IMG/VR virus record: IMGVR_UViG_3300046530_000250
Span: 1-45,977 of that record
Source: a virus
Direction: 5' to 3' (one strand)
Length of the DNA stretch: 45,977 nucleotides
Made by a program: the position numbers and the translations under genes. The stretch's first letter is position 1, and each line of letters starts with the position of its first letter. The notes below the pieces were generated by a model. That model was given only the letters and a program-made list of their open reading frames with translations, did not search any database and was not told the DNA's origin. Positions 35,193 to 45,584 of this stretch are shown in pieces.

Positions 35193-36371
35193 TTATTCAT
35201 CTAATGATAGATAATCCTTCCTTGCTAGATTATAGGGAACACTCCTATTCTCACCAAATGCACCTCCATAAACCTTTTCCAAATCCAACATTGGAAAGTC
35301 TTTCTCTCGATGATATTGGAGAACCATAGTTCTATCGACCATAATACCTTCCTTGCCACCGACTACGAATCTCGACTTACTACCTTTGAGCAATTTAATA
35401 GGTAAATGCTCAAACATTTTATACTTGATTAGAAGATTCTTGAATCTGCCTTTATCACAGACGCCATCCAAACAATTTATAAACAACAACGCCAATTCTT
35501 TTGTTGAAAGCTGCGCACGCAAAATGCTGGCATATTTATTTTTGTTTGCCTTCGAAACTACCGACTCATCATATCTATCAATTAGCTTCAGAACTTGATA
35601 CAAATTTCTAAAGTAATGACCAACGACATGATTGTGCTCGCTCTGAATAAAACCATATCTATCTAATACTTGCCTTGGAGAAGCAGAACCTTTAGCAAGA
35701 AACTTTAAAATCTCATCAAATGCAGCTCTCCCCTCAAATACCGTCACTGCGGCTATTGCAGGAGCAGACTCCTCTTTATAAAGCTCATCAGGAAACGACG
35801 AACTTACACTCGCGACGTTCAGAAACTTCTTTATTCCAGAAAGTTTCTTACGGTAGGCATTCTCATCAAGCAGACTTAAGTCAAATTTTATATTATCCGC
35901 AATTTTATGATGCAGCTCGAGAGTATTAAAGAAAGTATTTTCGACGGATTGCGTAGTTAAAGCTTCAGCTGTTTTTTCATACTCAACTCGTGACAATCTT
36001 AAATCGTGTCGCTGTACAACTATCGTCACAATAAGACCAAGAAATGTAAGGAAGGTCAGTATTGGGTTTAAGACCCCACCAAAGAAGTCACCAAAAATCC
36101 CTGCTACGCCCTCATGATTATTTACAAGCCAAACATCCACAACAAACAAAAACAACACCACACAGAGTGCATAAAACATCAAATTAAAGAGCGCCTTGGA
36201 CAGCACGTTATTTTCTTTTTCATTATTGCTCTCGGAAAGAACCTCCACGAAAGACCCATATGATGCATTCTTATAGTAAATAAACGAATACATCATCTGA
36301 GCGAAGGTACTGCAAATTTGAACGAAACCTATTGCCCAAAAAAAAGGGAAGATAAAACCCAAATAATCCAT
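35193..36371 (-). CDS. Putative phage abortive infection protein (putAbiC)
   Basis: A 392-residue membrane protein with hydrophobic segments at about 3-25, 62-83 and 98-118, then a cytoplasmic domain. The segment FGDFFGGVLNPILTFLTFLG followed by an EYEKTAEALTTQSVENTFFN helix and LHHKIADNI is the signature of the putAbiC family, associated with abortive infection. It is clearly AT-rich, converges with cI (11-bp gap) and lies in the usual site for lysogenic-conversion genes. It may protect the lysogen from other phages. Family membership is from memory of the signature. Confidence 0.8.
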   Translation of the reverse strand: MDYLGFIFPFFWAIGFVQICSTFAQMMYSFIYYKNASYGSFVEVLSESNNEKENNVLSKALFNLMFYALCVVLFLFVVDVWLVNNHEGVAGIFGDFFGGVLNPILTFLTFLGLIVTIVVQRHDLRLSRVEYEKTAEALTTQSVENTFFNTLELHHKIADNIKFDLSLLDENAYRKKLSGIKKFLNVASVSSSFPDELYKEESAPAIAAVTVFEGRAAFDEILKFLAKGSASPRQVLDRYGFIQSEHNHVVGHYFRNLYQVLKLIDRYDESVVSKANKNKYASILRAQLSTKELALLFINCLDGVCDKGRFKNLLIKYKMFEHLPIKLLKGSKSRFVVGGKEGIMVDRTMVLQYHREKDFPMLDLEKVYGGAFGENRSVPYNLARKDYLSLDE

Positions 36372-37612: not shown

Positions 37613-37778
37613 GGAATACGCCCGCCAGATCATCGCCATGCGGACACGAGAGGAGCGCAACGCCGCGCTCCTCGAAGTGCCCGAACATCTGCGCGAGCTG
37701 ACCAGAACGCACTGCCTGAACGCATGGAACCACCCGGCCAGAAAACAACGCAAGGAGGCCCAACAAAGCCATGAGTAA
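37599..37778 (+). CDS. Small phage protein, 59 aa
   Basis: The frame PREYARQIIAMRTREERNAA then LLEVPEHLRELTRTHCLNAW matches a small helical protein that I recall in many Pseudomonas prophage early operons. It starts at GTG 37599, overlapping the previous gene, or at ATG 37638. Its stop overlaps the start of the PrtN-like gene. Function unknown. Confidence 0.6.
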   Translation: MRWPREYARQIIAMRTREERNAALLEVPEHLRELTRTHCLNAWNHPARKQRKEAQQSHE

Positions 37779-38088
37779 CACAGCACAGAACCCGCTGCGC
37801 CTGCACCCGGCACCGGAGTCAGCCACCGTCGAACTGCTTTACCGCATCTTCGGCGACGTCCTGATCCCGCTGGACAAAGTACGCGAGCAGTACTTCCGCA
37901 ATCTCAACGAGCAGTCGTTCGTGGCCGAGATCAGCAGCGGCCGAATCCAGCTCCCCATCACCACGCTGGACACAAGCCGCAAGGCGCCGAAGTACGCCCA
38001 CATCCGGCACGTCGCCTCACTGATCGACATCCGCGCCTTCAAGGCCGACGAAGACATGCAGCGACAGCAAGACGATTCCACCGAGTAA
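37771..38088 (+). CDS. PrtN-like pyocin activator protein (first copy)
   Basis: A 105-residue protein of the PrtN family: ELLYRIFGDVLIPLDKVREQ, YFRNLNEQSFVAEISSGRIQ, LPITTLDTSRKAPKYAHIRH. PrtN activates pyocin genes by binding P-boxes. Here it is an early phage gene that may activate phage promoters. AGGAGG lies upstream (37753-37758), with ATG 37771. Confidence 0.85.
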   Translation: MSNTAQNPLRLHPAPESATVELLYRIFGDVLIPLDKVREQYFRNLNEQSFVAEISSGRIQLPITTLDTSRKAPKYAHIRHVASLIDIRAFKADEDMQRQQDDSTE

Positions 38089-39632: not shown

Positions 39633-39702
39633 CCATGGCTCCTAGCCATAAAAAAACGAAGCATGACCAGATCCGGCCGCATCGTCCATTTAGGAGGGAA
39701 AA

Positions 39703-40458
39703 GTGAATGAGCTGGCTCTTTTCGCAGGCGCTGGTGGCGGAATACTCGGCGGCCACCTCCTCGGCTGGCGCACCGTCTGCGCCGTTGAGCGTGATGCCTA
39801 CGCCGCACAGATTCTGGCGCAACGACAAACCGATGGACTGCTCCCGCCTTTCCCCATTTGGTCTGACGTGCGCAGTTTTGACGGACGCCCATGGCGAGGG
39901 CTTGTTGACGTGGTTTCGGGAGGATTTACTTGTCAGGACATCTCGGCCGCAGGCAACGGCCTGGGTATCGCCGGCGCCCGCTCCGGACTGTGGCGGCAGA
40001 TGGCACGCATTACCGATGAGGTACGACCGCGCTACATCGAACTGGAAAACTCACCATTGCTTGTGGGAAGAGGACTTGCCGTGGTGCTCGGTGACCTTGC
40101 CGAAATGGGGTATGACGCGCGATGGGGTGTTATCGGAGCGGCTGACTTCGGCGCGCCTCATCAGCGAGATAGGATCTGGCTCATCGCGGAGGATACCAGC
40201 CAGACGATGGCCAACGCCGGTGGCCAGCATGGCAAAAGGGTCCTCCCCTGCCGCACTGACACGCCGATCAGGTGCCGACCACTCAAACGATCAATTGGAT
40301 CACTCAGTGATGGCACTGGATGGTGGCCATCTGAACCCGGAATGGGCCGAGTGGCTGATGGGGTGGCCCATCGGCTGGACCGACTTAAAGCCATTGGCAA
40401 CGGGCAGGTTCCAGTCGTGGCTGCAAGAGCATTCGAATTGCTGTCCGATGGACGATAA
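39703..40458 (+). CDS. Phage DNA cytosine-5 methyltransferase
   Basis: The 251-residue product has C5-methyltransferase motifs: ELALFAGAGGGILGGHLLGW (I), DVVSGGFTCQDISAAG with Cys77 (IV), YIELENSPLLVGRGL (VI), FGAPHQRDRIWLIAE (VIII) and AIGNGQVPVVAARAFELL (X). The usual PCQ is TCQ, a rare change beside the nucleophile. Target recognition is short, as in small phage enzymes. It starts with GTG 39703, with AGGAGG 5 bp upstream. Another frame is open along nearly the whole gene. Confidence 0.85.
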   Translation: MNELALFAGAGGGILGGHLLGWRTVCAVERDAYAAQILAQRQTDGLLPPFPIWSDVRSFDGRPWRGLVDVVSGGFTCQDISAAGNGLGIAGARSGLWRQMARITDEVRPRYIELENSPLLVGRGLAVVLGDLAEMGYDARWGVIGAADFGAPHQRDRIWLIAEDTSQTMANAGGQHGKRVLPCRTDTPIRCRPLKRSIGSLSDGTGWWPSEPGMGRVADGVAHRLDRLKAIGNGQVPVVAARAFELLSDGR

Positions 40459-40474
40459 CCAGGAGGTCGCGTGA
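39707..40474 (+). CDS. Overlapping ORF in the methyltransferase gene, 255 aa
   Basis: This frame starts at ATG 39707, 9 bp from the same AGGAGG that serves the methyltransferase, and ends at a TGA that overlaps the GTG of the next gene (GTGA). It encodes MSWLFSQALVAEYSAATSSA, then SNWKTHHCLWEEDLPWCSVT, LPKWGMTRDGV and NPEWAEWLMGWPIGWTDLKP (from 40334). I recall this pattern as a widespread phage protein family often annotated near or as methyltransferases. Shared DNA codes EPGMGRVADGVAHRLDRLKA in the methyltransferase frame. Openness alone is weak evidence in GC-rich DNA; the motif match and the start/stop coupling are the support. Confidence 0.5.
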   Translation: MSWLFSQALVAEYSAATSSAGAPSAPLSVMPTPHRFWRNDKPMDCSRLSPFGLTCAVLTDAHGEGLLTWFREDLLVRTSRPQATAWVSPAPAPDCGGRWHALPMRYDRATSNWKTHHCLWEEDLPWCSVTLPKWGMTRDGVLSERLTSARLISEIGSGSSRRIPARRWPTPVASMAKGSSPAALTRRSGADHSNDQLDHSVMALDGGHLNPEWAEWLMGWPIGWTDLKPLATGRFQSWLQEHSNCCPMDDNQEVA

Positions 40475-40740
40475 ACACCATTTTTCTCTTGATGGCCCAG
40501 TATCACGGGCAAGCGGTCATCCCCTTGGATCGCGTGTGTGCCGATTACATGAATCTCACCGTCGAGAAATTCAAACACAAGCGACTTGCCGGGGAGATCG
40601 ATATTCCCGTCGTCCGCCTTGGGCCTGAAAGTCAAAAGGCTGGGCTCGGCATTCACTTGACTGACCTCGCAGCCTACATTGATCGACAACATCAACGTGC
40701 AACGGCGGAGCAGAATCAACTAATGGGGAGGCGCACATGA
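40471..40740 (+). CDS. PrtN-like pyocin activator protein (second copy)
   Basis: An 89-residue PrtN-family protein: TIFLLMAQYHGQAVIPLDRV, CADYMNLTVEKFKHKRLAGE, IDIPVVRL and HLTDLAAYIDRQHQRA. The start is GTG 40471 with AGGAGG 4 bp upstream. It is diverged from the copy at 37771, so they probably have distinct targets. Confidence 0.85.
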   Translation: MNTIFLLMAQYHGQAVIPLDRVCADYMNLTVEKFKHKRLAGEIDIPVVRLGPESQKAGLGIHLTDLAAYIDRQHQRATAEQNQLMGRRT

Positions 40741-40892
40741 TCAGTCGCATAGCTCCGCCCTTACCTACCAATGGTGTTACCATGCGCGGTCAACAATCTC
40801 ACGCCGTAACGTGTAAATTCGAGAGCTCAGCGCTTGAGTGCCTGCGGAAAGATCCTAAACAGTACGCCTGCGAATCTAAATTGGAATCAACC

Positions 40893-42011
40893 ATGAACAA
40901 CCCTGTAGTCATCGATCTCTTCTCTGGTGTCGGTGGCCTTAGCCTTGGAGCCTCTAGAGCTGGCTTCCACGTTGCAGGTGCATTTGAAATTGATAAATAT
41001 GCAATTGCAACACACAGCATCAATTTCCCACATGCTAACCACGTTCAGGCTGACATAGGTTCATTGACCGGCAAAGAAATCCTCGAACTCTCTGGCTTAA
41101 AGCAAGGGATGCTCGACGGACTTATCGGCGGGCCTCCTTGCCAAGGCTTTAGCACTATGGGGAAACGTGATGACACCGATCCTCGTAACCAACTTTTTTA
41201 TCATTTCTTTAGACTCATTAAAGAAACAAAGCCAAAATTCTTCATCGCCGAGAACGTACCTGGCATTCTTACTGAAAAATACAAAGTGCACGTTCAAACT
41301 GCGTTAGACCTAGTGCGCAAAGACTACACCTTACTTGACCCTATCAAAGTCAAAGCTGATCGTTATGGTGCGCCCACTACACGGACGCGAATATTCTTTA
41401 TAGGATTCAAATCTGAAACACTGAAATACGAACTTAGCGCCGAAATATTTCTACCGCATCCAGAGACTTCTCTGGTTAACGTCAAGTCGGCGCTTGAAGG
41501 ACTGCCGACTATGATCCGTGCAGACTGGCAAGCGGAAGAGCAGTCCTGGAGAAAAGCGCAACCTCATTCCGACAGTGAATTTCACAAGGCGGTGAACGGA
41601 AACATTCCAACAGGTATAGGCTCAGCAAAAGCCATTGAACTGCTTTTTGAAAAACAATTGGTTTCTGGCTGTTTGGGCACACGCCATATACCGGAGGTTG
41701 TGAAACGCTTTGCTCGCTTAAAAGCTGGAGAGGTGGACGCCATTTCCAAAGCCAAACGACTTGATCCAAATGGGTTCTGCCCAACATTGAGGGCCGGGAC
41801 CGGAAGCGACAAAGGTAGCTTCCAAGCTGTGAGGCCGATTCACATGACAGCCCCCCGAGTAATTACTCCACGAGAGGCTGCACGCTTACAGGGTTTCCCT
41901 GACTGGTTCCAATTTCATCCAACCAAATGGCACAGCTTCCGCCAGATAGGAAACAGCGTTAGCCCCATCGTGGGCGAACACATCCTGACATCTATATACA
42001 GATGTTTATAA
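40893..42011 (+). CDS. DNA cytosine-5 methyltransferase of the right cargo triad
   Basis: The 372-residue protein has all main C5 motifs: VIDLFSGVGGLSLGASRAGF (I), GGPPCQGFSTMGKRDD with nucleophile Cys83 (IV), FIAENVPGI with Glu120 (VI), YGAPTTRTRIFFIGF (VIII), ITPREAARLQGFPDWF (IX), FRQIGNSVSPIVG (X). I chose ATG 40893, with GGAA 7 bp upstream; the open frame extends to 40737 but the added text is unlike the family. It converges with the GHKL operon, stops overlapping by 6 bp (TTATAA). It is more AT-rich than the phage core. It may protect against a linked restriction activity. Confidence 0.92.
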   Translation: MNNPVVIDLFSGVGGLSLGASRAGFHVAGAFEIDKYAIATHSINFPHANHVQADIGSLTGKEILELSGLKQGMLDGLIGGPPCQGFSTMGKRDDTDPRNQLFYHFFRLIKETKPKFFIAENVPGILTEKYKVHVQTALDLVRKDYTLLDPIKVKADRYGAPTTRTRIFFIGFKSETLKYELSAEIFLPHPETSLVNVKSALEGLPTMIRADWQAEEQSWRKAQPHSDSEFHKAVNGNIPTGIGSAKAIELLFEKQLVSGCLGTRHIPEVVKRFARLKAGEVDAISKAKRLDPNGFCPTLRAGTGSDKGSFQAVRPIHMTAPRVITPREAARLQGFPDWFQFHPTKWHSFRQIGNSVSPIVGEHILTSIYRCL

Positions 42012-42986
42012 CACCACTCGTGAATACCAAGGGAAGAGCCTGTAGAAGTTAATAAAATTCTCCATCTCTTCCCCTGCCACCCGCTGGTTGGAACCGGCGT
42101 AAAACTGCAGATTGCCATTAATATCCGCTACCGTTGCCCCAGGCAGCATCGATTCAATGTGCACACGCTCCTTTGCGGATAATGCCGGAACACTAATACT
42201 TGTTGGAGTCTTGCACGTTTCGTTAAAAAACGTCCAATGCCTCAACCGAGTCTCAGTTAAAAATGGCTCCACTTCGTCCTCTCGCAGAAGAATTCCCGTC
42301 ATAGTCAGCATTTGTTGTCCATCACTGTATACAAAGGCTGTCAGTGGCTGAACTATCAGTCCTGGATCCCCTTCAAGACCATGCTTCGCTGCAGACATCA
42401 GAGCATGCAGTAAAACATTTGGATAATTCTTAGGAGTTACATCATCAGCTGAAACTTGCGCGGGGCTATAACTACTTAGCTTACGCATGATTGCTCGAGC
42501 ACGATGCTCTCGCAGATCCGAGCCATCACTGGGGTTTCCCAATGATGCGGGATTAGCATTTAGAGTTATCTTAAAAACGTCACCATGCCCAAGCTTTGCC
42601 GTCAGCCGCTGAACCTCCGTCAGCTGCGACGTAATGTCAGGAGTTGCATAGTCAAACCAGACGATACTTCCTTCCGCCGAATCGAACTCATAGTCGCTCA
42701 AAAACTCATCGCTCGACTCATTCCTAAGCTCTATACAGGAGAGCGGCTTATTGAATTTTTGACGCTGAAAAACATTGGGATCCATCTCAAGCGAGACCAT
42801 CTTTGATATCCTCAAAGCGGAATGCAGATGCTTAAAATCCTCCAAGAACGGACCACCAAAACCTATATAACTATAGTCTGAAATATTTCTAAAGCGGCCA
42901 ACGCGCGCAAGTAAATCCACGAACAGATTACGTTCTATCGCCTTATTCTGGCGAAGATGATATGGAATACTCCCCCCTGCACTCAT
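42006..42986 (-). CDS. Rossmann methyltransferase-like protein of the triad, 326 aa
   Basis: The protein opens SAGGSIPYHLRQNKAIERNL, then YSYIGFGGPFLEDF (about 38-51), which resembles the glycine-rich SAM loop, MVSLEMDPNVFQRQKFNKP (acidic residue at the second strand), and SIVWFDYATPD (about 107-117) as a motif-IV-like strand end. So it has a class I methyltransferase-like fold; I recall annotation of relatives as putative O-methyltransferases. The gene starts 2 bp after the GHKL gene, with AAAGGA in front, so the two are co-translated. Substrate is unknown; it could be a non-catalytic nucleic-acid-binding partner. Confidence 0.7.
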   Translation of the reverse strand: MSAGGSIPYHLRQNKAIERNLFVDLLARVGRFRNISDYSYIGFGGPFLEDFKHLHSALRISKMVSLEMDPNVFQRQKFNKPLSCIELRNESSDEFLSDYEFDSAEGSIVWFDYATPDITSQLTEVQRLTAKLGHGDVFKITLNANPASLGNPSDGSDLREHRARAIMRKLSSYSPAQVSADDVTPKNYPNVLLHALMSAAKHGLEGDPGLIVQPLTAFVYSDGQQMLTMTGILLREDEVEPFLTETRLRHWTFFNETCKTPTSISVPALSAKERVHIESMLPGATVADINGNLQFYAGSNQRVAGEEMENFINFYRLFPWYSRVVL

Positions 42987-42988
42987 AC

Positions 42989-44380
42989 TTAAATCCTTTT
43001 CAAGGCTTCATCAAAGCATTTCGCGCCCACATCACCAGGCAAGGCATCCTCATCATCAAAAAAATGAATGCCAAGTGCTTTAATATCTTGAATTGGACGA
43101 GAGAATCGCAGGAATCGATGCTCTTGATTGACGACAGGCATAGGCAATTTCGGTTTGAATTTTTTGCCCTTGATAACACCACGCTGATCCGCGGTCCATT
43201 GATCAGCAGGGATGCTATTCATGATACCGGCCGGACTCGTCGAAACCGCAGTTTGACTAAGCTCCGCTCGTTCTCTCGAGGGCCTCTTCCATTTATTCGT
43301 GAAAGCAGTAAAGATTTTTGTACCTTCCCGCATGAACTCTTTTACAGCTAGATAAAGGTCTGAATTCCCATCTATACCTCGCTTAGTCGTGGTCACCGGC
43401 AACAAAGAAGCATCATTACACTTGAATGTTACTACCCCTGCGATAGAAACAAATTGGGTATGATACTGGGGTACACCCGCCTCACCCCAACCAGTGACTC
43501 GCGTCTTATCGGCATATAGCACAACGCGATCATTACAGATTAGAGTCCAGCCTGCCTTTTCAGTCGACGGGCGACCTGCTAGCGACTCCTCCTCCTCCTC
43601 ATCTGTAGGCAGATCTCTGTAAAAACCTACTGCCAGCGCAATCTCAACGCCTTTATACACACCAGAATAAACGTAAGGCGCAATACCATTACCGGTTGTT
43701 AAAGCATTTTGGTTGTAGATAAAACTGGACGTTTGCGGGAAAATTTCTTCACCATTGACGAAAACATTAAACCCCTTCGATATAATATTTCCATAATAAG
43801 CGGCAATCGACTTCTTCAAATCATCCACAAAACCTGTCTGGTCCGAAAATAACCGCGACACCCCCTCATCCAGGTCTTCAACCCTTAAACTGGTACCCCT
43901 GCTTTCCAATGAGGAATCAGTCACTTCCTCAATAGGTAAATCCCAATCGTCGTCGTCAGCAAGCCACTCAGGGCTAATTACAACCTTGTATGAAGCGTCA
44001 TTAGCATGCGTCTCGATTATGGAAGAACGCCCAAGCTTGAATATCGCCCGCTTCATCCCGATGCCGTAAACACCAACAGTGGGGACATCACTATCGGTGT
44101 CTCTATCGGGGCGACCCAATCGGAAAGCTCTGTTGAGAGCGACGCTCTGAGGTATACCACCGCAATTGTCAATAATCGAAAAAAAATCTTTATCGAAAGT
44201 TATTTCAGCCTTAAATCCTACATATGGCTGATCCGAAGCCAATTCATCTTTCTTCTCTCGCATTGCGCCGTCAACACAGTTGTCGAGCAGGTCGAGAATA
44301 GAATCCTTTAACTCAATATCCCTCGTAAGCATCTCGACAAAAAAGCGCTTTGCGGGGTGGGCGTTGATTCTACCTGCCAT
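42989..44380 (-). CDS. GHKL ATPase (MORC/MutL/Hsp90-like), 463 aa
   Basis: The N-terminal half has the Bergerat ATP-binding fold: N-box SILDLLDNCVDGAM (about 27-40, Asp at the usual Glu position), G1 IIDNCGGIP (about 69-77), G2 VGVYGIGMKRAIFKLG (about 102-117), and RGTSLRV (about 161-167). The C-terminal part has YDLAVKEFM-like and FFDDEDALPGD segments of unknown function. Prokaryotic MORC-like GHKL ATPases are known to be linked to restriction-modification gene clusters. AAGGG precedes ATG 44380. It is the first gene of a two-gene operon converging on a C5 methyltransferase. Confidence 0.85.
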   Translation of the reverse strand: MAGRINAHPAKRFFVEMLTRDIELKDSILDLLDNCVDGAMREKKDELASDQPYVGFKAEITFDKDFFSIIDNCGGIPQSVALNRAFRLGRPDRDTDSDVPTVGVYGIGMKRAIFKLGRSSIIETHANDASYKVVISPEWLADDDDWDLPIEEVTDSSLESRGTSLRVEDLDEGVSRLFSDQTGFVDDLKKSIAAYYGNIISKGFNVFVNGEEIFPQTSSFIYNQNALTTGNGIAPYVYSGVYKGVEIALAVGFYRDLPTDEEEEESLAGRPSTEKAGWTLICNDRVVLYADKTRVTGWGEAGVPQYHTQFVSIAGVVTFKCNDASLLPVTTTKRGIDGNSDLYLAVKEFMREGTKIFTAFTNKWKRPSRERAELSQTAVSTSPAGIMNSIPADQWTADQRGVIKGKKFKPKLPMPVVNQEHRFLRFSRPIQDIKALGIHFFDDEDALPGDVGAKCFDEALKRI

Positions 44381-44486: not shown

Positions 44487-45584
44487 CTAGCGCGAATCTA
44501 CAACTTTTCCTAGCCAGCTCCAGCCTGCATACACGTCGCCGCGCCCCCGCAAATGGGTATAACGACGCAGAGAATTCCAGTCCCGATGCCCGGAAACGCT
44601 CGAGACCCTGGGAATGTCCCAGTCCATCTCGAACAGGCGGCTCACGCCCTCATGCCGCAGGTCATGGAAATGCAGATCCTCAATGCCCAGAAGAGGGCAG
44701 GCACGGGTAAAGGACGCCGACACCGATTTACCGTTGTAGGGAAAAATCTCATCGGCCACTTTTGGCATAGCTTGAACGATCGCCCAAGCTTCATCCGGTA
44801 GATGGCACCAGACGTTGTTGCCGATCTTCTGCCCCGGGTTCTTCATGTCTCGCACCAGGACCGCCTGCCGGACACAGTCGAGATCGTCCCAGCGCATCCG
44901 GGTGATCTCCTCCTGGCGGCGCGTTGAAAAAATCGCAAAGGCGATCAGCTTCGGCATGTCGATCTGAGCTTTGCGCCGGGTCTGCATTTCAAAGTAATGC
45001 CGCATGAGCTTGTCCAGCTCGGCGAGGGTCGGTCGGCGGTTGCGCTCCTTGCTTTTGCTCACCATGCCGAGCTTGCGCAGCACCTTGCGCGCGTCAGGCA
45101 TGGCTAGAGGATCCACCTCGTAGCCCCACGCCGGTCGGGCCACGGACAGCACCGCGCCCAGGTGCGACAGATCGTTGCCGACCGTCTGCGCCTGGACACC
45201 ACCGCCCTCCTCGCTCATCCGCCACTGCGCGAATTCCACCAGCTTCTGGCTGCTCAGTGCCGAATCGTCGAGCTCGCCCAACCAGGTGTCCTTGATCGCG
45301 TTCAGCGTCGCACGTTTGGTTTTGCCCAGCGGCCGGATCCTTTCGTATTCGGTCAAGTACTGCTCGATCATCTTCCTGATCGTCACGCCCTTGCGGTTCG
45401 CGCGCTCGATGGCACCGGGCTCGGCCAGCTCCGTCTCACGGCGCTTGATCCAGGCCTGGGCGACCTGCTTGCGATCGAAGGTCTGGCTTTCCTGATAAAC
45501 TGTCTTCCCGTCCCGATTTATCCGTATCTGCGCCGTGTAGGCCGTCGAATTGTCCTTGCGCTTGCGTGATGTGATCGTGCCCAT
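44487..45584 (-). CDS. int: Tyrosine recombinase / phage integrase
   Basis: The 365-residue integrase has an N-terminal arm-binding domain (TAQIRINRDGKTVYQESQTF), a core-binding helical domain (QYLTEYERIRPLGKTKRATL) and a catalytic domain. Catalytic residues: Arg in FSTRRQEEITRMRW, HDLRHEGVSRLF (His-x-x-Arg), GHRDWNSLRRYTHL with the His and the Tyr nucleophile. It catalyses integration at dusA. It lies about 180 bp from the attR core. The start ATG 45584 has no strong ribosome site, and a TTGCTACAT repeat lies directly upstream. Confidence 0.95.
   Translation of the reverse strand: MGTITSRKRKDNSTAYTAQIRINRDGKTVYQESQTFDRKQVAQAWIKRRETELAEPGAIERANRKGVTIRKMIEQYLTEYERIRPLGKTKRATLNAIKDTWLGELDDSALSSQKLVEFAQWRMSEEGGGVQAQTVGNDLSHLGAVLSVARPAWGYEVDPLAMPDARKVLRKLGMVSKSKERNRRPTLAELDKLMRHYFEMQTRRKAQIDMPKLIAFAIFSTRRQEEITRMRWDDLDCVRQAVLVRDMKNPGQKIGNNVWCHLPDEAWAIVQAMPKVADEIFPYNGKSVSASFTRACPLLGIEDLHFHDLRHEGVSRLFEMDWDIPRVSSVSGHRDWNSLRRYTHLRGRGDVYAGWSWLGKVVDSR

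Follow-up and report, generated by a model that had tools for sequence, protein, structure and literature searches.

M.EcoHK31I (YGGCCR), and likewise M.EaeI, are C5-cytosine methyltransferases that consist of two polypeptides. In M.EcoHK31I, these are an α chain of 309 aa and a β chain of 176 aa, the latter of which is said to be read out-of-frame within the gene for α, as reportedly described by Lee, Kam and Shaw in 1995. The large subunit of this enzyme carries motifs I-VIII and X and is predicted to contain the target-recognition region (TRD), and the small polypeptide carries only motif IX (PMC3404938). A different division is found in M.AquI, where one portion of the split enzyme is catalytic and the other contains the TRD and motif IX (PMC3404938). 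Finally, an HNH endonuclease with a ShiLan domain has been found hidden within a phage methylase (PMC11855218). Here we describe a locus in a viral sequence of 45,977 nucleotides (IMG/VR record IMGVR_UViG_3300046530_000250, referred to in its full length as the window), in which a C5-methyltransferase gene is overlapped by a second long frame on the same strand.

Organization of the overlapping frames

The locus contains frame A and, shifted by +1, frame B, which are organized as follows.

39692-39697, + strand: Shine-Dalgarno (SD) sequence AGGAGG, common to A (5 nt to GTG) and B (9 nt to ATG)
39703-40458, + strand: frame A, GTG start, 251 aa, C5-cytosine methyltransferase, putative catalytic (α) subunit
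39707-40474, + strand: frame B (+1), ATG start, 255 aa, proposed TRD/motif IX (β) subunit
39703-39712, + strand: dual start GTGAATGAGC, GTG of A with the ATG of B 4 nt downstream, consensus RTGAATGAGY
39707-39898, + strand: B residues 1-64, constrained N-terminal extension, found only in the long form
39919-39939, + strand: motif IV of A, GGFTCQD, with Thr in the window copy and Pro in 125 of 126 homologues
40202-40327, + strand: B residues 166-207, resembling a TRD (WPTPVA...), under selection in B with A near neutral
40331-40384, + strand: B residues 209-226, motif IX, LNPEWAEWLMGWPIGWTD, assigned by profile HMM and hhalign
40390-40413, + strand: motif X of A, AIGNGQVP, the sole stretch of A aligning to single-chain C-termini (E 1e-5)
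40471-40740, + strand: next gene, PrtN/PyocinActivator family (phrog_1300), whose GTG start overlaps the stop of B

These coordinates agree with the description in the earlier note, which had listed two frames of about 250 codons starting at GTG 39703 and ATG 39707, a single AGGAGG serving both starts, C-terminal motifs of both proteins encoded by the same bases and a stop codon of the second frame that overlaps the start of the following gene. Latter overlap involves the TGA at 40472-40474 and the GTG at 40471 of the PrtN-family neighbour.

 A second gene of the PrtN/PyocinActivator family (phrog_1300) is located at 37771-38088, and a canonical single-chain C5-methyltransferase (40737-42011) adjoins the overlap locus. 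It is followed by a Methyltransf_35 protein (42006-42986), a GHKL ATPase with a sub-threshold match to MzaB (42989-44380) and, beyond it, a tyrosine recombinase (44487-45584). The region 40737-44380 may constitute prophage cargo or a defence module. A protein with AbiC- and AbiP-like PADLOC matches is encoded at 35193-36371.

Homology of the encoded proteins

Frame A is a C5-methyltransferase, as had been proposed from its motifs in the earlier note. It matches PF00145 with an E-value of 3.9e-29, though only over positions 4-167 of the 324-position profile, which comprise the catalytic half, and it also matches phrog_363 and the HhaI family. The protein contains the SAM-binding motif I, the PCQ motif IV, an ENV-like motif VI, the QRxR of motif VIII and motif X, but no recognizable motif IX. 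An equivalent of PREAARLQGFPDWF, the in-frame motif IX of the other C5-methyltransferase encoded in the window (40737-42011), is lacking in A, and a search of frame A with the motif IX HMM gave no hit in overlap-type loci apart from two sub-threshold matches of 1.1 and 2.6 bits. The predicted structure of A corresponds to the large domain of C5-methyltransferases, with Foldseek matches to HaeIII, HhaI and DNMT1, and falls below a pLDDT of 50 at residues 171-216 and 222-234. In the window copy, Thr replaces Pro in the PCQ motif (39928-39930), a substitution that is unique among 126 aligned homologues; the activity of this copy may be impaired or weakened, or the position may contain a sequencing error.

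The region missing in A is found in frame B: by sequence comparison, the C-terminal portion of B corresponds to the TRD and motif IX of C5-methyltransferases. The C-terminal halves of single-chain enzymes align to B residues 159-226 (hhalign probability 98.2%, E 4.1e-14) and subsequently to A residues 222-251 (82%, E 1e-5). Equally, the HMM built on motif IX of B detects the methyltransferase's own frame in the single-chain contig L260 (39.6 bits, E 1.6e-11) and likewise in L240, L299 and L187. A similar division is manifested in the PADLOC orphan-methyltransferase profile PDLC03718, of which A matches the N-terminal positions 6-158 and B the C-terminal positions 296-351. B further matches phrog_1008, a family annotated as DNA methyltransferase that corresponds to the second half of the split enzyme of Streptomyces phage Samy. 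The earlier note had assigned B to a separate, widespread phage protein family, a view that we abandon: neither Pfam nor NCBIfam contains a family that fits B, and its similarity is to the TRD and motif IX absent from A. Weak matches of the B profile to sequences of PDB entries (apolipoprotein E, villin) were judged to be due to chance. Modelled alone, B is predicted with low confidence (pLDDT 54), as may be expected for a subunit that needs a partner.

We consider it highly probable that A and B form a heterodimeric C5-methyltransferase similar to M.EcoHK31I, with A as the α and B as the β subunit. In such an enzyme, A would provide the catalytic large domain, which includes the SAM-binding site, the cysteine of the PCQ motif and motifs VI, VIII and X, and B would provide the target-recognition region and motif IX as small DNA-contacting domain. 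A single ribosome-binding site would initiate both chains at starts 4 nt apart and so couple their supply. We infer that B is translated, that it would assemble with A and that activity would depend on it; the complex would methylate phage or prophage DNA, probably as protection from host restriction. A naturally split enzyme provides a precedent in favour of a heterodimer (PMC3439449). The conserved N-terminal part of B, 64 residues without methyltransferase counterpart, would also be compatible with a genuine overlapping-frame protein that serves a function of its own, such as anti-restriction, next to an A that works without it. We find this improbable, as B holds exactly the TRD and motif IX that A lacks, as the same pieces are joined in single-chain relatives, and in light of the precedent of M.EcoHK31I.

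Maintenance of both frames

Within the window sequence itself, the open frame B is only mildly unusual, with no stop codons compared to a mean of 3.1 after synonymous shuffling of A (p ~0.02), and the case for dual coding thus rests on relatives. For that purpose, 169 loci were collected from genomes and viral contigs with A or B as query. The +1 frame of practically every intact homologue is open between the start of A and its last codons, at A identities as low as about 52% and GC contents of 45-64%, while the +2 frame contains 10-27 stops. Among 126 distinct A homologues, counted over a core without the start codon and the last 15 codons, we find 3 internal stops in B compared to 442 expected from synonymous shuffling, whereas the +2 frame of the same sequences shows 2011 stops compared to 1342 expected. 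The dual start is similarly preserved: RTGAATGAGY is found in 151 of 170 parsed loci, with a purine-rich SD ahead of it in most of the homologues displayed. In loci with this start, codon 2 of A is always AAT, although AAC would equally encode Asn but remove the ATG of B.

Both frames have also left their imprint on the pattern of substitutions. Third codon positions of A coincide with second positions of B. In pairs with 80-90% A identity, differences at positions 1, 2 and 3 of A amount to 0.119, 0.045 and 0.147, respectively, where third-position divergence reaches 0.22-0.54 in neighbouring genes; the ratio of position 3 to position 1 is 1.24 compared to 2.2-4.2 in these neighbours, and the third positions of A are about two to four times more conserved than theirs. 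When substitutions are counted by their effect in both frames, purifying selection acts on A and B overall, with dSS being a rough estimate that is based on about 5 SS sites per pair. The selected frame switches along the gene, from A for motifs I-VIII to B for codons 166-228. In codons 2-75, both frames are constrained and the A-synonymous rate is low (0.14-0.16), whereas in codons 76-100 constraint is found in A only (A-synonymous rate 0.61). In codons 166-207, B is constrained (dNN/dNS 0.11-0.12) while A is near neutral (dNN/dSN 0.66-0.91). Constraint resides mainly in B in codons 208-228 and more in A in codons 229-248, which include motif X. In pairs at 55-65% A identity, the identity of B lies above the null expectation from synonymous shuffling in all regions, with values of 0.535 vs 0.320 for codons 1-64 and 0.386 vs 0.291, 0.408 vs 0.277, 0.183 vs 0.091 and 0.758 vs 0.319 for four further regions in order, figures that are to be read as effect sizes and not as p-values since the pairs are non-independent. 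Over codons 65-165, the similarity in B is in part only a shadow of that in A, since the profile of B 65-165 also matches the +1 frame of single-chain enzymes.

Together, these comparisons strongly support a true overprinting with both frames being maintained, as the earlier note had suggested; the second frame is almost uninterrupted in relatives and under purifying selection in the comparison of homologous DNA. The course of selection from A to B and back to A would in principle also fit one full-length methyltransferase produced by two programmed frameshifts, of which the first would enter frame B ahead of the TRD and the second return to A ahead of motif X, with no separate B. This we regard as very unlikely, considering that B has a conserved ATG of its own next to the shared SD, that it is constrained from residue 1 onward, and that in short forms of the locus B begins at internal starts near codon 45-65 of A, in 24 of 39 cases with an SD-like motif. 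The notion that frame B is no more than a shadow, left open by chance and preserved only through the conservation of A, can be dismissed with near certainty. In its favour are the p-value of only ~0.02 in the single sequence and the partial shadow similarity of B. Against it are the stop counts in 126 sequences (3 vs 442), suppressed third-position change, a near-neutral A where B is constrained and a similarity of B that greatly exceeds the shuffle null.

As separate observations, locus L029 contains a nonsense codon at position 106 of A (GAG to TAG) that leaves B open with a missense change, reflecting either a copy with a dead A and an intact B or a sequencing error. In two records (L175:1442-2140 and L184:1501-2229), depositors have annotated frame B as hypothetical protein and missed frame A, and in other phage records frame A is annotated and frame B missed.

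Distribution and evolution of the overlap

A total of 333 loci were typed by the frame in which the motif IX profile matches. Of these, 237 carry the motif in the +1 frame (193 of the long and 44 of the short form) and 31 in A's own frame, including L054 and L049, which are close relatives of the window disrupted by indels. No match of the profile was obtained in 65 loci, several of which are truncated, frameshifted or canonical enzymes that are too distant. In L292, the profile matches the +2 frame (36 bits) and not the +1 frame, indicating an indel or another arrangement. The best-defined short-form B proteins comprise about 160-220 aa and lack the N-terminal extension (residues 1-64).

The overlap is not restricted to Pseudomonas, a possibility that we had considered. 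Among broader homologues, phages infecting Salmonella, Klebsiella, Acinetobacter, Vibrio and Microcystis as well as Leptospira plasmids retain the long form, and the overlap is also found in a Verrucomicrobiales genome. In homologues from phages of Mycobacterium, Porphyromonas and Bacteroides and from two Stenotrophomonas phages, B is open only from codon 20-40 on. Motif IX resides in the methyltransferase's own frame in Mycobacterium phage Tweety gp72 and in L240, L260 and L299. In a quick tree of catalytic domains, the overlap types fall into one clade of 120 rows with single-chain rows nested inside, and short-β and single-chain relatives occur in the same clade.

Concerning the direction of the frame change between single-chain and overlap forms, we infer, with a slight leaning towards this scenario, a general phage architecture in which the recognition domain of an ancestral single-chain enzyme has moved to the +1 frame and the new subunit has grown upstream to the start of α, leaving one ribosome-binding site for both. 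If so, specificity would evolve in a frame that overlaps an otherwise unconstrained linker, and L260 and L299 would represent reversions to a single chain. Relatives with TRD and motif IX in the enzyme's own frame offer a test bed for the change of the reading frame of a domain.

Relation to known systems

To our knowledge, dsDNA phages and bacteria rarely contain long same-strand overlaps with strong evidence for selection on the two frames, and in the literature on gene overlap and overprinting we found no description of the A/B overlap in phages. Complementary portions of a single enzyme would be encoded in the two frames, so that the overlap may fix their stoichiometry. Since gene callers annotate one frame or the other, as hypothetical protein or as methyltransferase, only one half of the enzyme is present in many databases, and cloning a single ORF of a predicted orphan methyltransferase of the overlap kind may yield an inactive protein.

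In having a protein in an alternate frame of a phage methylase, the locus is reminiscent of the ShiLan HNH endonuclease, which is a homing-endonuclease insertion, whereas here there is no insertion and both frames encode parts of the enzyme. Tweety gp72, Arthrobacter phage MidnightRain gp84 and the contigs L260, L299 and L240 share the homologous catalytic domain, TRD/IX and motif X, but combine them in a single reading frame with motif IX in frame. A catalytic part separate from the TRD/IX part is common to M.AquI and the AquI-like gp49/gp50 of Samy (L189:351-1692), a C5-methyltransferase encoded by two adjacent non-overlapping genes. In these systems, a separate gene encodes the TRD together with motifs IX and X, whereas here the second chain overlaps A and motif X remains in A.

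Judged from published descriptions, the closest likeness is to the bacterial M.EcoHK31I; a search of E. coli genomes with the short-form relative L195 as query found nothing. In both cases the large chain carries motifs I-VIII and X and the small chain motif IX, and in the window and its relatives, as reportedly in M.EcoHK31I, the small chain is encoded out-of-frame within the gene of the large chain. The short-form B of about 160-220 aa is also close to the 176 aa ascribed to its β. Subunits of a methyltransferase that overlap in different frames would thus already be known from M.EcoHK31I. What the present locus and its relatives add is a broad spread among phages, quantitative evidence that both frames are selected, a start region common to the two chains, the greater length of β and the placement of the TRD in the frame of β. 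In contrast to M.EcoHK31I, the locus described here resides in a phage or prophage, its β of 255 aa shares the SD of α, from which it starts 4 nt later, and extends over the entire α frame, and selection on the TRD acts in the frame of β, whereas the published prediction places it in the large subunit (PMC3404938).
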